A stretch of DNA of 64,000 nt. It comes from an uncultured Candidatus Saccharibacteria bacterium (lineage in GTDB: Bacteria; Patescibacteriota; Saccharimonadia; Saccharimonadales; Saccharimonadaceae). Numbering within the stretch: position 1 is the first letter of the stretch; each line of letters opens with the position of its first letter. Location: assembly GCA_945873065.1 (NCBI GenBank), contig CAMCBN010000001.1, positions 124,001 through 188,000 on the forward strand, read 5' to 3'. The position numbers and the translations under genes were made by a program. The notes beneath the pieces are model-generated. The model was not told the origin of the DNA. It saw only the letters and a program-made list of their open reading frames with translations, and ran no database searches. This document shows, one piece after another, positions 24,688 to 30,628 of this stretch.

Positions 24688-26262
24688 CTATTCTGCCAAA
24701 CTCGCGCGAATCAGCCCGACAAATAGTGGGTGCGGGCGGAATGGTCGCGACTTAAATTCTGGGTGAGCCTGGGTCGCTACGAAATAGTCGCAGGCTGGCG
24801 CTTCAACAAATTCCACTAGCCTACCATCTGGCGAGGTACCAGATACTATCAACCCACCCTTTTTGACAGCCTGAACAAATTTTTGATTAACCTCATAGCG
24901 GTGTCTATGGCGCTCAGTTACCTCTGTTACACCATAAAGTTGCGCAATATGTGAATAATTTTTTAGTACAGCTGGATAGTCGCCCAGCCGCATCGTGCCG
25001 CCAGTCGATTGCTTGCCCTCTTGCCCATCCATAATATAAATCACGTTCGCCCCATCTCCAGCGCCAAATTCTTCGCTATTTGCATTTTTTACACCGCCCA
25101 ACCGTGCCGCTGCGATCACTGCTGTCTGTAGTCCCAGACAAATCCCAAGATATGGTTTGTTGTTTGTCATACAATATTCTGCCGCCAAAATCATACCCTC
25201 CACGCCGCGCTCGCCAAAACCGCCTGGCACCACAACGCCGTCAACACCGGCAAAATCTGCTACCTCGGCCGTCTCAGCATTAATCCAGCGGATCTCAATC
25301 TCGCTCTTTTCGCCCCACGCAGCCGACTTGAGTGCTTCGGTCACCGACAGGTAAGTGTCCGAATTATCAATATATTTTGCCACCAGCCCGATCGTCACTC
25401 GTTTTTTGTATTCAGTCGTGTCGCGCCGCGCTAATTTTCGCCATTTATCCAAATTTGGCTCAACGATGTTACCAGTAAAATTACTCAACGTCGCGCCCAG
25501 GTCGCGCGCCACCGTTAGCGGCACTTCGTACACCGTATCGACATTTGGCATCATAACGATCCCGTCCGAGCGCACGCCCGATGAAATAGCAATTTTTTCG
25601 CCAATACTGCGCGGCGGTTTATTATGTCCCTCGGTGCGCACTGCCACCACATCTGGCATAATCCCAAAACCGCGCAAATCCGCCAAAGCGTTCTGCGCCG
25701 GTTTGGTTTTATATTCCTGCGACGCTTCTAAAAACGGCACATAGACTACATGAACAAACAGACAATTTTCCCGCCCAACATCCAGCGCAAAGCCGCGAAT
25801 CGCCTCAATAAAACTGAGACCTTCATAGTCGCCGACCGTTCCGCCGATCTCCACCAAATGAACCTCGCCCTCGGCCGCCTGATGAATGGCTTTTTTGATC
25901 GAATTCGTCAAGTGCGGCACCAATTGCACTGTTTGTCCGCCAAATTTTCCAGCCCGTTCATCATTGATCAAATCGCGAAATAATCGCCCGCTCAAAGTAG
26001 CGTTTTTTTGCGTTAATTCAAGATCCAAAAACCGCTCGTAATGCCCCAAATCGAGATCAGTCTCAGCACCATCCTTAGTCACAAAACACTCGCCGTGTTC
26101 ACGCGGGTTCAGCAGCCCAGCATCAACATTCAAATACGGGTCGCATTTTTGCACCGAAACAGTGATCCCTTTCGCCTGCAATACCGCCCCGATGCTAGCC
26201 GCCGTGATTCCCTTGCCCACGCCCGACAACACCCCGCCAGTCACGAAAATATATTTAGTCAT
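24688..26262 (-). CDS. pyrG: CTP synthase
   Basis: A 524-aa amidoligase making CTP from UTP, ATP and glutamine. The synthase domain (MTKYIFVTGGVLSGVGKGITAASIG, with the P-loop) and the glutaminase domain (GICLGLQTAVIAAA with the catalytic Cys, and AHPEFKSRPFRPHPLF with the His/Glu) are complete. I chose ATG 26262, which has GAGGG six bases upstream, over the TTG at 26268. It sits 52 bp after the 57-aa CxxC ORF and near nrdAB, forming a dNTP-supply cluster. Confidence 0.97.
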   Translation of the reverse strand: MTKYIFVTGGVLSGVGKGITAASIGAVLQAKGITVSVQKCDPYLNVDAGLLNPREHGECFVTKDGAETDLDLGHYERFLDLELTQKNATLSGRLFRDLINDERAGKFGGQTVQLVPHLTNSIKKAIHQAAEGEVHLVEIGGTVGDYEGLSFIEAIRGFALDVGRENCLFVHVVYVPFLEASQEYKTKPAQNALADLRGFGIMPDVVAVRTEGHNKPPRSIGEKIAISSGVRSDGIVMMPNVDTVYEVPLTVARDLGATLSNFTGNIVEPNLDKWRKLARRDTTEYKKRVTIGLVAKYIDNSDTYLSVTEALKSAAWGEKSEIEIRWINAETAEVADFAGVDGVVVPGGFGERGVEGMILAAEYCMTNNKPYLGICLGLQTAVIAAARLGGVKNANSEEFGAGDGANVIYIMDGQEGKQSTGGTMRLGDYPAVLKNYSHIAQLYGVTEVTERHRHRYEVNQKFVQAVKKGGLIVSGTSPDGRLVEFVEAPACDYFVATQAHPEFKSRPFRPHPLFVGLIRASLAE

Positions 26263-26313
26263 CACCAACCCTCAATTACATAGAAGCATTACCCTACAGC
26301 CCCTATTGGGGAT

Positions 26314-26487
26314 CTACTCACAACCATCACAAACCGTCAAAGATGCTGGATCAAGCGGTGCTGCCACACCACCAGTTGCTCGTGCTTGGTCGTCGGCTGC
26401 CGCCTGGGCCGCCTTCATCGCTGCGTCAATAGCGCTTAATTTTTCTTCCAAAGTCATGTCGTCGGAGATAATTTGACTCGCGTTCAT
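26314..26487 (-). CDS. 57-aa ORF ending in a CxxC motif
   Basis: A short gene I found by reading the bases. ATG 26487 has AAGGA at a good distance. The product is acidic and helical (MTLEEKLSAIDAAMKAAQAA), then ends LDPASLTVCDGCE, with two cysteines two residues apart and one residue after them. This ending resembles the C-terminal CxxC redox tail of class I NrdA proteins, which the NrdA in this cluster lacks. It sits between tandem NrdR-like boxes upstream and pyrG downstream. A redox partner of ribonucleotide reductase is an inference only. Confidence 0.6.
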   Translation of the reverse strand: MNASQIISDDMTLEEKLSAIDAAMKAAQAAADDQARATGGVAAPLDPASLTVCDGCE

Positions 26488-26498
26488 TTTTCTGTCCT

Positions 26499-26546
26499 TT
26501 TCTATATTTAGTAGTGCTTATATTCATGTTACGCTATATATAGCGC
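26499..26546 (-). promoter_or_regulatory. Tandem NrdR-like boxes upstream of the 57-aa ORF
   Basis: The box at 26531-26546 (ACGCTATATATAGCGC) is a near-perfect palindrome matching the NrdR consensus aCaCwATATATwGtGt at 13 of 16 positions. The box at 26499-26514 has a core CTATATTTAG, one base off the core consensus. They start 32 bp apart, three helical turns, the usual arrangement for NrdR, the ribonucleotide-reductase repressor. The nrdR gene itself is not in this window. Confidence 0.6.
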
Positions 26547-26957
26547 TTATGCAATATAATGCAGCCAATTTCCTGTTGTAGTTTTTTCATCAAGTTGACC
26601 AATTGGTGCTACGTAGATTTGCGGATTTTTACATTTTGGCAAGAAATCTTTTAGCTTTTCTCTATAAGCTTCCATAGCCGCCACTTTGTCATCACCAGAC
26701 ACCTCAGAAGCAATTGTTTTCAAAAATACCCCGCGCACTTGATCATCCCAAATGGCAAACTCCACCTTGCCAGTTCTGAAAGCATTTTTTGAATGCCGCG
26801 ATTCCTTGTCTGATATCCAAACAATTTTATCGCCCATACGCGCAAAATGTACTACAGCGATGGCTGGCGTACGATCACGATTGACTGTCGCCATAGCGCC
26901 AACCCGCACATTATCTAAGATTTCTTTTGCTAGTTCGTTCATTCTCTCAGCCCTCAC
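26547..26957 (-). CDS. Pyridoxamine 5'-phosphate oxidase-like FMN-binding protein
   Basis: A protein of about 136 aa with a split-barrel flavin fold: ILDNVRVGAMATVNRDRTPAIAVVHFAR and GDKIVWISDKESRHSKNAFRTG are typical of PNPOx-like proteins. The exact substrate is unknown. The start is uncertain: GTG 26957 overlaps the nrdB stop as GTGA, while ATG 26942 has GAGGG nine bases upstream. It closes the nrdA-nrdB run and is followed directly by NrdR-like boxes. Confidence 0.82.
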   Translation of the reverse strand: MRAERMNELAKEILDNVRVGAMATVNRDRTPAIAVVHFARMGDKIVWISDKESRHSKNAFRTGKVEFAIWDDQVRGVFLKTIASEVSGDDKVAAMEAYREKLKDFLPKCKNPQIYVAPIGQLDEKTTTGNWLHYIA

Positions 26958-27934
26958 TTCGTTGTATTCACCTCGTAACTCGTATTGGTGCTTTCAAAGA
27001 AATTGACGAGTTCCAGCGTGTCGTTTGCCGTTGCCATCCACTTGGCAGGATTTGTCACATTATATTCCGGCTCAAAGCCTAATTCTTGCAAGCGGCGGTC
27101 AGTCATGTGCATGACGTATTGATTGACATAATACGCATTCAGACCCAAAATTCCCTTTGGCAGCATGTCCTTGTTGTATTCTTTTTCTAGTTCAACCGCC
27201 TGCAAAATTAGCCCGCGAATTTCCTCAGCAAACTCCTGCGTCTGGAGCTCTGGATTTTCATCGAGAATCGTTAGCAGCAAATTAATGCCAAAAGTCAGGT
27301 GAAGATTTTCATCCTTAGTAATCCAGTCGAGCAGCGTACCGACATTTCGAAGCAGATTGCGCTGGCGGAAACTCATACCGACCATAAAGCCGGAGTAGAA
27401 CCAAATACCCTCAAGCACGATGTTGTAAGCCACTAATGAACGAACAAAATCTTTCTTGCCTTCCAGGCTGTAGATGTCCAGATTTGGATCAAGCATCACT
27501 TCCAGGTGTTTGTTTTGGAAGTCAGCCTTGTCAGCCAGCGATTTTTTGCCAAAGCCAGCCGCATAAATTTCCTCGCGATCAAACGGAAAGGTCTCGATGA
27601 TGTATTCAAAAGTCATGAAATGATTAGCCTCTTCCCACATCTGTTTCGAGAGGTACAGTTGTGCTTCCGCCGCATTAACGTACGGATAGATACCAAACGC
27701 TAGCGATTTATTGATCAGCAGCTCATTTGGATTGAGATAGCTGATGACGGTTTTGAGCGCGTGCTTTTCTTCGTCGGACAATTTGTCAAAATCCGCCAAA
27801 TCCTGCACCAACTGCACTTCGTTCGGAAACCATGTGTTAGCCACCGCTTGATTGTACAAATCGTACGCCCACTGATAGCGAATTGGATGTAGGCTGAGTC
27901 CGTCGCGTAAACCTGATCCTAAAATACCACTCAT
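26954..27934 (-). CDS. nrdB: Ribonucleoside-diphosphate reductase small subunit, Tyr-to-Phe type
   Basis: A 326-aa class I R2 subunit that holds the metal site generating the radical for NrdA. Ligands are visible: Glu in LNPNELLINKSL, EEANH (ExxH), Glu in VLEGIWFY, and DENLH (ExxH). Four residues after the first His, where the radical Tyr normally sits, there is Phe (HFMTF). This is the signature of Mn/Fe class Ic enzymes such as that of Chlamydia. The ATG 27934 is directly preceded by the TAG of the 42-aa ORF and by GGGGAGG. Confidence 0.94.
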   Translation of the reverse strand: MSGILGSGLRDGLSLHPIRYQWAYDLYNQAVANTWFPNEVQLVQDLADFDKLSDEEKHALKTVISYLNPNELLINKSLAFGIYPYVNAAEAQLYLSKQMWEEANHFMTFEYIIETFPFDREEIYAAGFGKKSLADKADFQNKHLEVMLDPNLDIYSLEGKKDFVRSLVAYNIVLEGIWFYSGFMVGMSFRQRNLLRNVGTLLDWITKDENLHLTFGINLLLTILDENPELQTQEFAEEIRGLILQAVELEKEYNKDMLPKGILGLNAYYVNQYVMHMTDRRLQELGFEPEYNVTNPAKWMATANDTLELVNFFESTNTSYEVNTTK

Positions 27935-28063
27935 CTATTTGTCCTCCCCTTCTGCCAAAAAGTCCAAAGTAAACAACGCTTGTTGGCCAAGGGCTTTTTG
28001 TGCTGCCTCCTCTGTCAAAAAATCAATTTCCGGTAGCGGTGGTTGATATTCTATTCGTTCCAT
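27935..28063 (-). CDS. 42-aa ORF packed between nrdA and nrdB
   Basis: ATG 28063 has GGAGGG upstream, one of the best ribosome-binding sites here. The frame runs to a TAG that touches the nrdB ATG. The product (starts MERIEYQPPLPEIDF, ends LFTLDFLAEGEDK) is acidic. FTLDF resembles the C-terminal R1-binding peptide of R2 subunits (mouse R2 ends FTLDADF). NrdB here ends shortly after NFFESTNTSYEV, so a binding peptide encoded separately is conceivable. That is inference; the ORF itself, with its ideal site and tight packing, is well supported. Confidence 0.65.
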   Translation of the reverse strand: MERIEYQPPLPEIDFLTEEAAQKALGQQALFTLDFLAEGEDK

Positions 28064-28077
28064 ATTTCCCTCCTTTA

Positions 28078-30480
28078 TTACTTCTTAATCTTAGCGAACC
28101 CAAACCCGCGCGTCTTGGCGCCAGTTCGAACTTTTTGTTCAGAAATCTTATCAACCGAGACGGTCGTCTGCTCCGATTGATGGCGCGGCTTAACATGCAA
28201 ATAATATGTCGTTTTCAAGCCGCGGCGCCAGGCTTCGGAGTAAATTTCGACATATTCATCAATGTTGCGCGTCTCCAGATACATATTGCGAGAAATCGCC
28301 TGGTCGACCCACTTTTGTGCCCGCGCTGCCACCTCAATAAACGCGTATGGACTGAGCTGGAAGCTTGTTTTATACACATCGCGAATTTTTTGCGGGATTT
28401 CATCAATATGCTGAATGTCGCCTTGATTTGCGAAAATTTCATCTTTCAATGTGTCCCACAAATCTAGCTTCTTGAGGTCGCGCACTAAATTATTATTCAC
28501 CTCAAGGAACTTGCCATTCAGCGTCGAGCGGCTGAAAATCTGGGCAAACTGCGGATCAATACCCGGCGTGGTACCCGCCACATGCCCAATGTTTGCCGTT
28601 GGCGCGATCGCCATGAGAGTCGCATTGCGCATACCTTTTTTCACTTTTTTGCGCAAACTGTCCCAGTCCAGGCGCGTTTTATGATCAATTTTCACCTTGA
28701 GTTTGCGATTTTCGGACAGTTCATCCAGCGTGTCGATCGGCAGCTGACCTTTGCTCCAGCCGCTGCCTTTGTATGCCGGATAGCTGCCCCGCTGCTGAGC
28801 CAAATCCGCCGACTGGTCGATGGCGTGGTAGCTGATAAATTCGGTCAATTGGTCAATCAGATCGTACGCCTCGTCCGACTCATAACAAAGCCCTAATTTC
28901 TCCAGCACGTCAGTAAAGCCCATTATACCGATACCAACCGCCCGCGTTTGCTCGTTAGCGTGCATCGCCTCGGGAATCGGCGTCTGCGTAATGTCCACCA
29001 GATTATCCAACTGGCGCGTTGCTGCCCGCGACGCCTCTTTCAGCCGCTCCCAATCCCACGTCTTATCCTCATTCAAAAACGCCGACAAATTGATACTAAT
29101 CAAATTACAGGTAGCGATATTTTTCTCGTCCTGCGGCAAAGTAATTTCCGTACAGAGGTTCGACAGATGAATTGTGCCGGTATTGTTGTTGAGTGCCCGC
29201 ACATTAATCGTGTCTTTCCAGGTCAGCCACGGGTGGCTAGTTGCCTGCAAACTAGTCAAAATCTGTTTAAATTGCTGACGAGCGGGGATTTTTTCAAACA
29301 CGCGCAGTTTGCCCGCTTCAGCCATTTTGACATACTCTTTATAGCGCGCCGAAAACGCTTCGCCGTAAAGCTCTGGCAGGTCGGACACTTCAGCCGGGTC
29401 AAACAAATACCAATCTTGATCTTTCTGAACACGCTTCATAAATTCATCAGAGATAAACACCGCCGTGTTCGCAAAGCGGGTACGCATATACGGATCGCCG
29501 GAATTAGAACGCAGATCAATAAACTGATCAAAATTAAGATGCCAGTTTTCCATATAAATCGCTGCCGCACCAGCTTTCTTGCCCTTGCGGCTGACCGCAA
29601 ACAGCGCTGTGTCGATCATTTTCATGAACGGAATCGGACCGGTTGATTCGGTATTAGTGGTTTTCACTGGACTACCAGCTGCGCGAAGTTTGGTAAAGCC
29701 GATGCCGATGCCGCCAGTACCTTTCGCGATAAACATTGTGTCGCGGATCGATTTAGCGATCGACTCCATGTCATCTTGTACTTCCATCAAGAAGCAGTTC
29801 GAGAGCTGTGGGAACGAACCGCCGGCGTTCACCCGGGTTGAGCCGCCCGGTAAATATTCCAACCGACTCATATGTTCATAGAACTCGACCGCCGCCGCGG
29901 TTGGATCTGGCTCATTGTAGCTAAGCCCCATAGCAATCCGCATGTGGGTAAACTGCGGCGTTTCCAGCGGTTGTTTGTTTTGTTTACGCAAGGCGTAGCG
30001 GTTGCGGTTGGTCATCACGCCGAGATATTTACTGAGGTCATCGCGCGCTGGCTCGAGCGCCTTACCTAATTTTTTCAAATCAAATCGCCCGTCGCTCATT
30101 CGCTTGTCGAGTAGTCCGTCCGTGACCGCCGTTTTAACAAATTCTGGAAATTTCTGGGCATGCAATTTTTTCAGTTCATCAGCCGTCTCGTAGTCGCCCA
30201 GCGTATTTTTATAAATATTTTTTAGGAGCAAGCGCGCCGCGATTTTATCATAATCCGGATCATCCTTGACGTTTTGCAGCGCCGTCTGAATCACTGCCTC
30301 GTCCAGCTGCTCCGACGTAATACCGTCAAACAGCGTCAACTGCAATTCCGTCGCAATCTGCACCACTTTTGACACCTGGTCCGGCAAGCCGTCGCAGGCT
30401 TTTAAGATCGCTGTATTAATTTTATTCGCATCAAACGGTTCTTTCGAGCCGTCGCGCTTGATAACATGAATTTGTTGCAC
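28078..30480 (-). CDS. nrdA: Ribonucleoside-diphosphate reductase large subunit without a C-terminal CxxC
   Basis: An 800-aa class I R1 that reduces NDPs to dNDPs. The ATP cone (VIKRDGSKEPFDANKI) opens it. The catalytic set is present: the first redox Cys (QLSNCFLM), the NLCTEI radical Cys and Glu, the second redox Cys (ATCNLISIN), and the TTYYLH radical-transfer pair. The usual tail with a CxxC that re-reduces the site is missing; after TTYYLH there are about 45 residues ending RGFGFAKIKK with no Cys. The start is GTG 30480 with AAGGAGGGG upstream. The NrdR-like box lies in its promoter. Confidence 0.97.
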   Translation of the reverse strand: MQQIHVIKRDGSKEPFDANKINTAILKACDGLPDQVSKVVQIATELQLTLFDGITSEQLDEAVIQTALQNVKDDPDYDKIAARLLLKNIYKNTLGDYETADELKKLHAQKFPEFVKTAVTDGLLDKRMSDGRFDLKKLGKALEPARDDLSKYLGVMTNRNRYALRKQNKQPLETPQFTHMRIAMGLSYNEPDPTAAAVEFYEHMSRLEYLPGGSTRVNAGGSFPQLSNCFLMEVQDDMESIAKSIRDTMFIAKGTGGIGIGFTKLRAAGSPVKTTNTESTGPIPFMKMIDTALFAVSRKGKKAGAAAIYMENWHLNFDQFIDLRSNSGDPYMRTRFANTAVFISDEFMKRVQKDQDWYLFDPAEVSDLPELYGEAFSARYKEYVKMAEAGKLRVFEKIPARQQFKQILTSLQATSHPWLTWKDTINVRALNNNTGTIHLSNLCTEITLPQDEKNIATCNLISINLSAFLNEDKTWDWERLKEASRAATRQLDNLVDITQTPIPEAMHANEQTRAVGIGIMGFTDVLEKLGLCYESDEAYDLIDQLTEFISYHAIDQSADLAQQRGSYPAYKGSGWSKGQLPIDTLDELSENRKLKVKIDHKTRLDWDSLRKKVKKGMRNATLMAIAPTANIGHVAGTTPGIDPQFAQIFSRSTLNGKFLEVNNNLVRDLKKLDLWDTLKDEIFANQGDIQHIDEIPQKIRDVYKTSFQLSPYAFIEVAARAQKWVDQAISRNMYLETRNIDEYVEIYSEAWRRGLKTTYYLHVKPRHQSEQTTVSVDKISEQKVRTGAKTRGFGFAKIKK

Positions 30481-30533: not shown

Positions 30534-30599
30534 CGACTGACACCTCTCGTCTGTCTGCTTTTATTTAATATATTCTTACACATTTAGCGTATAGTTATT

Positions 30600-30628
30600 A
30601 TAATAAAGCACTATATATAGAGTGGCAA
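30600..30628 (-). promoter_or_regulatory. nrdA promoter with NrdR-like box in the spacer
   Basis: TTGCCA (-35, 30623-30628), a 17-bp spacer and TATTAT (-10, 30600-30605) on the minus strand. The box GCACTATATATAGAGT (30608-30623) fills the spacer and matches the NrdR consensus at 14 of 16 positions, so a bound repressor would block polymerase. I saw no second clear box at 31-32 bp. Confidence 0.6.

Follow-up and report, generated by a model that had tools for sequence, protein, structure and literature searches.

A 57-aa ORF near the ribonucleotide reductase (RNR) genes of a Saccharibacteria genome very probably encodes the C-terminal redox tail of a class I RNR, detached from the catalytic subunit NrdA and produced as a separate mini-protein. 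RNR is needed for DNA synthesis, and a swinging tail with a CxxC is a textbook part of its class I form. Its mechanism within class I enzymes is known (PMC3483043). The sequence-only reading of the window, the 64-kb stretch of DNA analysed here, had proposed that this ORF supplies the tail that NrdA lacks. Comparative evidence (co-occurrence, homology to cis tails and NrdR boxes of its own) supports the proposal; its action in trans, with docking and thiol exchange, is what we infer. At the level of sequence, the case comprises a C-terminal motif homologous to that of cis tails, a cis tail missing from NrdA, co-occurrence of mini-protein and tail-less NrdA, signals of co-regulation and selection on both cysteines.

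The features of the locus are listed in Table 1. The window NrdA scores 1303 bits against the NF005101 class I alpha family (cutoff 988), NrdB adjoins it, and the enzyme is assigned to class I and not to the B12-dependent class II. The catalytic residues expected of it (C225, N437, C439, E441, C462 and YY730-731 in what we take to be E. coli numbering) occupy alignment columns that are invariant in 27 relatives, while the protein ends in ..RTGAKTRGFGFAKIKK (GFGFAKIKK), a C-terminus free of cysteine. The ORF begins with ATG and its product, MNASQIISDDMTLEEKLSAIDAAMKAAQAAADDQARATGGVAAPLDPASLTVCDGCE, closes with C53-D-G-C56-E57-stop, which places a CxxC one residue before the end. Thus the local description given by the sequence-only reading is confirmed: a NrdA with its core catalytic residues and no C-terminal CxxC, and a 57-aa ORF with AAGGA before its ATG and a CxxC near its end, located behind NrdR-like boxes and before pyrG. 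The ORF lies 1590 nt from nrdA, beyond nrdB and a PNPOx-like gene; in most relatives it follows nrdA directly. We regard the PNPOx-like gene as a neighbour only and propose no part for it in the mechanism.

Table 1 Features of the RNR locus in the window.
Feature	Position	Strand	Description
pyrG	24688-26268	-	next gene after the mini-protein ORF
Mini-protein gene	26314..26487	-	MTLEEKLxAIDxAM helix, conserved, at the N-terminus; CxxC-bearing tail PLDPASLTVCDGCE at the C-terminus
Shine-Dalgarno-like AAGGA of the mini-protein gene	26495..26499	-	sequence; similar motif in relatives
NrdR-like box pair before the mini-protein gene	26499..26546	.	32 bp start to start, 16-bp spacer
PNPOx-like gene	26547..26957	-	PF01243, E=2e-7; between nrdB and the mini-protein gene
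nrdB	26954..27934	-	RNR radical-generating subunit, PF00268, E=9e-71
42-aa ORF	27935-28063		fills the nrdA-nrdB gap; contains FTLDF
nrdA	28078..30480	-	800-aa catalytic subunit of a class I RNR; complete barrel with ATP cone
NrdR-like boxes upstream of nrdA	30575..30623	.	ACTCTATATATAGTGC with a second, weaker box, starts 33 bp apart; score 22, P=0.003

Two further observations concern the same locus. The 42-aa ORF was considered as an R2 C-terminal peptide and rejected, as no similar ORF occurs among the relatives listed; these have other small ORFs in the nrdA-nrdB gap. Judged by eye, the window NrdB carries Phe (..EEANHFMTF..) at what is presumably the class Ia radical-tyrosine position, where NrdB of another family of the class, f17, has Tyr. 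The Phe suggests a class Ic-like cofactor.

AF2 predicted for the mini-protein alone a helix spanning residues 13-38, followed by a low-confidence tail. Searches of the Pfam and NCBIfam families returned no match, comparison with PDB, PHROGs and NCBIfam gave nothing convincing, and annotated phage records gave no match. Shortness and the lack of a Pfam or NCBIfam family are what one would expect of a chance frame, or of a small protein that has nothing to do with RNR and is near nrdA by accident. The conservation of the ORF speaks against this. The mini-protein is kept in 33/33 genomes of the window's family that have tail-less NrdA, and scanning a named collection with an alignment of mini-proteins from family f1 only recovered 77 loci. 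Almost all of these carry a Saccharibacteria or Patescibacteria label, and the complete genomes CP011211.1 and TM7i CP075337.1 are among them. Across 55 distinct 57-aa genes the median dN/dS is 0.11 (245 pairs), and both cysteines are kept in all 55; a Shine-Dalgarno-like sequence precedes 72/72 mini-protein genes, and displaced copies usually have NrdR boxes of their own. The mini-protein is a real, conserved gene under purifying selection, and conservation, dN/dS and the Shine-Dalgarno-like sequences led us to reject a chance ORF, to which we give practically no credence.

The presence of the mini-protein tracks the loss of the NrdA tail. Among 147 genomes drawn evenly from the class, it was found in 34: 33 of the same family as the window and G028, a member of another family (E=0.004). 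A short NrdA of ~800 aa (535-560 bits) occurs in exactly these 34 genomes and no others, and none of the 34 has a CxxC in the last 40 residues of NrdA. The mini-protein is therefore present in 34/34 genomes with a tail-less short NrdA versus 0/113 other genomes of the sample. Further NrdA-type sequences of the class that were examined (L094-L120), most of which resemble class II enzymes and have tails rich in cysteine, all show a CxxC in this stretch, except for one N-broken sequence. In the named collection, the nrdA C-terminus was found near 73 of the loci, and again no NrdA there has a CxxC (0/73), although this set was found through the mini-protein and is thus not unbiased. The sequence-only reading had named conservation of the ORF and its match with CxxC loss as points to check, and relatives with both the ORF and a NrdA CxxC as a counter-indication; the first two hold, and no such relative appeared among the 34 carriers of the class sample. 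According to the tree, the co-occurrence of mini-protein and tail-less NrdA in f1 and f20 traces back to one evolutionary event.

Two side observations were made in the same material. No class I/II RNR barrel (PF02867) was found in 44/147 class genomes (e.g. genera g3 and g9), many of them near-complete. At L176 (G418), nrdA has one in-frame stop mid-barrel, for which error, recoding and decay are candidates.

In the named collection the mini-protein gene lies directly behind nrdA at 54 loci, and in many relatives the gap measures 3-106 nt and is sometimes in frame, as if NrdA and the mini-protein were made as one protein by stop-codon read-through or frameshifting. The gaps, however, occur in all phases, and the mini-protein gene is equipped with a separate start and ribosome-binding site; in some relatives, as in the window, other genes stand between it and nrdA, 1.1-2.6 kb apart, and it has NrdR boxes of its own. 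Given the gap phases and the displaced copies, we reject a fusion of this kind, the chance of which is negligible. When the in-frame read-through NrdA-mini-protein fusion of a relative was modelled with AF2 (27 rows), the mean pLDDT was 64.5, the barrel was poorly folded and no docking was seen.

That the mini-protein corresponds to a NrdA tail is indicated by NrdAs of other Patescibacteria, which end in ..GFG-[linker]-CPIDPQERxxCDSCQ. In the alignment, these full-length cis NrdAs read LKTTYYLHMKPRHTAEQST..NK..GFG, linker, ACPIDPQERLQCDSCQ, whereas the Saccharibacteria NrdA reads LKTTYYLHVKPRHQAEQSTVKVNK..GFGFAK and then stops, and the Saccharibacteria mini-protein terminates in APLDPADLTMCEGCQ. 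In a search covering 380 genomes of the phylum, the mini-protein profile (A1) matched full-length NrdAs from other Patescibacteria at their very last residues, with E=3e-7, 5e-6, 4e-5, 1e-3 and 0.03. A profile built from f1 alone matched the cis tails weakly (E 0.05-9, 4848 ORFs) and G028 with E=4e-6, so that the link between mini-protein and cis tails leans on bridging sequences. G028 is the intermediate that joins the two: its NrdA ends GFGFGFAK-stop (GFGFAK*), followed after 18 nt by a mini-protein ending in AFACPIDPAERALCDSCQ (C-terminus CPIDPAERALCDSCQ), of whose last 18 residues 10-13 are identical to cis tails. The f1 and G028 NrdAs form one clade (100/99), sister to the cis NrdAs, and the tree is consistent with a single fission in the f1/G028 clade. 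With cis NrdAs as sisters and the break in the linker, the locus has the appearance of one ancestral RNR gene that split, leaving the cysteines on the smaller piece. The conserved helix MTLEEKLxAIDxAM, to which the AF2-predicted helix 13-38 is referred, is absent from the cis linkers. The mini-protein thus combines a C-terminal CxxC, homology to cis tails and a tail-less partner NrdA, with G029 and G014 as exceptions.

A second lineage shows a similar arrangement. The NrdAs of family f17 form a long separate branch in the tree, and 11/12 of them have no CxxC; related f21 enzymes end in CSILDPDCEACQ. Using the pattern C-[DE]-x-C-Q-stop, we found free tail genes of 32-37 aa in f17 (L121-L129, L136; e.g. 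MPEVNKINDEDWDKPMVCPIDPKELAECEACQ), unlinked from nrdA and present in 8/11 genomes with tail-less NrdA; none was seen in the tail-less f17 genomes G042, G017 and G020, which are drafts 86-93% complete. By all appearances, f17 lost its NrdA tail independently of the window lineage. Candidate free tails outside the class, in G430 and G479, were dismissed as chance matches. The DEDWD segment of the f17 free tail resembles the C-terminal LxW(D/E) of NrdB from the same genome and might mimic NrdB. Two genomes do not fit simply with a detached tail. G029 (f17; L035, L121, L136) has a cis CxxC on NrdA in addition to two free tail genes, and is either an intermediate or a mixed assembly. G014 (f23; L148) encodes a tail-like mini-protein (..ANVCPLNPDNIEDCQACQ) with NrdR-like boxes (P=0.01); this genome lacks NrdB, and its only RNR is of class II and itself bears a cysteine tail.

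Regulatory signals also connect the mini-protein to RNR. NrdR boxes are paired, with a spacer of 14-17 bp (PMC12051234), and we scored pairs with this known spacing against dinucleotide shuffles. The pair before the mini-protein gene is the best in the 64-kb window and the only one there scoring >=23, and 0/300 shuffles were as good. As it lies between the same-strand PNPOx-like gene and the ORF, it can serve only the ORF. At P<=0.05, box pairs were found upstream of nrdA in 29/33 cases, of f1 mini-protein genes displaced from nrdA in 5/8, of those directly behind nrdA in 1/23, and of f17 tail genes in 7/10. A NrdR gene was detected in 13/13 genomes tested, over the cut-off in the window genome; with a predicted box pair and a NrdR gene, the mini-protein gene is a putative member of the NrdR regulon. 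At L121, L122, L124, L126 and L127 the f17 tail gene is arranged head to head with a conserved gene or placed next to it. This gene resembles a LOG-family nucleotide hydrolase and, where divergent, might share the NrdR boxes of the f17 tail genes.

A small helical protein co-regulated with nrdA could also be a NrdA-binding regulator or inhibitor whose cysteines are incidental or structural; yeast Sml1 is of similar size. Yet both cysteines are invariant, the motif matches NrdA redox tails, the NrdA tail is missing exactly where the mini-protein occurs, and an RNR inhibitor would be of little use to phages. We therefore regard a regulator as very improbable.

Viral sequences carry the mini-protein as well. 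It is encoded on 17 IMG/VR contigs (L267-L283), and no NrdA barrel was found on any of the 17 when whole contigs were searched, although these may be fragments. Four of the contigs (L275-L278) have a glutaredoxin gene close downstream of the mini-protein gene, after one small ORF; the one tested matches PF00462 with E=7e-13. At L188, the mini-protein gene is on a contig in a Saccharibacteria bin together with phage terminase and portal genes. A virus carrying only the tail gene would make sense if the tail acts in trans on the NrdA of the host, and the phage copies may provide an extra tail for the host enzyme. Separately, an extra copy on a Saccharibacteria-binned contig (L240) has a divergent Cpn60 chaperonin directly upstream.

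That the mini-protein, with its CxxC end, occurs on viral contigs without NrdA and next to a class II enzyme in G014 would also suit a small dithiol carrier that stands alone: a kind of minimal NrdH that serves RNR and perhaps other enzymes and is not a docking tail. We consider this unlikely, if less so than a regulator. The mini-protein lacks a thioredoxin fold with an N-terminal CxxC: it has no Pfam match, consists of one helix and a low-confidence tail, and bears its CxxC at the C-terminus, as NrdA tails do and in a motif that matches theirs. Moreover, the genome already encodes an ordinary thioredoxin, and in the four viral contigs a separate glutaredoxin gene follows closely, as if the mini-protein were the acceptor.

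Taking the mini-protein as the detached tail, we propose the following mechanism. The ancestral NrdA would have had a flexible tail with CPIDP-x5-CxSCQ, as it still does in other Patescibacteria. A break in the gene, presumably within the linker that follows GFG, left the tail as a protein of its own, 54-79 aa long. Its conserved N-terminal helix probably docks on NrdA in lieu of a covalent link. The CxxC of the mini-protein would, after each turnover, enter the active site of NrdA and reduce the C225-C462-type disulfide, to be re-reduced in turn by thioredoxin or a glutaredoxin. Expression could be matched to that of NrdA by position in the nrdA operon or by separate NrdR boxes. In yeast, the tail of one R1 monomer is able to serve the adjacent one. 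It is reasonably likely, with less certainty than the detached tail itself, that Saccharibacteria use a three-component RNR of NrdA, NrdB and a ~57-aa tail subunit that swings from solution or is docked by its helix, that the tail was detached at least twice in the class, and that phages carrying the tail gene only, sometimes with a glutaredoxin, boost or capture host RNR.

Such an arrangement would give a role to a conserved protein whose shortness keeps it out of present family libraries, and exemplify repeated gene fission in reduced genomes. Since a separate tail can be added, titrated and mutated apart from the enzyme, docking, stoichiometry and choice of reductant become directly testable. 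The viral copies suggest that phages could influence the nucleotide metabolism of the host through an auxiliary gene of great economy.

The sequence-only reading held a tail provided in trans to be new. This does not stand as such, given NrdJa/NrdJb (PMC4520616) and phage Aeh1 (PMC2988022), but the narrower claim does: a class I RNR with a dedicated tail subunit, ~57 aa long and also borne by phages, appears to be unreported, as no report was found in the open-access literature. The closest known system is the class II NrdJa/NrdJb of Pseudomonas aeruginosa, where the C-terminal cysteines reside on a second polypeptide, the 229-aa NrdJb (PMC4520616). As proposed here, a gene fission product bears the cysteines and performs dithiol exchange for a cysteine-less catalytic subunit, and there both polypeptides are needed in vivo (PMC4520616). 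That enzyme, however, is B12-dependent and its genes form one operon split at a fixed site, whereas the Saccharibacteria enzyme is class I and its partner is ~57 aa long (shorter in f17), is often encoded apart from nrdA behind separate NrdR boxes, and is virus-borne too. By analogy, the mini-protein would work like NrdJb, but it is no member of the NrdJb family because its enzyme belongs to class I. In Aeromonas phage Aeh1, a class I NrdA is likewise assembled from two polypeptides, encoded by nrdA-a and nrdA-b, and is functional (PMC2988022, PMC3653736); there, insertion of the homing endonuclease mobE split the gene in a functionally critical region, giving neither a detached tail nor a conserved bacterial subunit. 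Facklamia ignava, with a glutaredoxin fused to NrdB (PMC6187632), similarly shows rearranged delivery of reducing equivalents in a class I RNR, but there a redoxin domain was added to NrdB, whereas in Saccharibacteria the acceptor tail was apparently removed from NrdA. Compared with the ordinary CxxC tail of class I NrdA, the mini-protein has the same motif at the same distance from the C-terminus and homology to the cis tails of Patescibacteria, and it differs in that a gene of its own encodes it and a conserved helix has been added.
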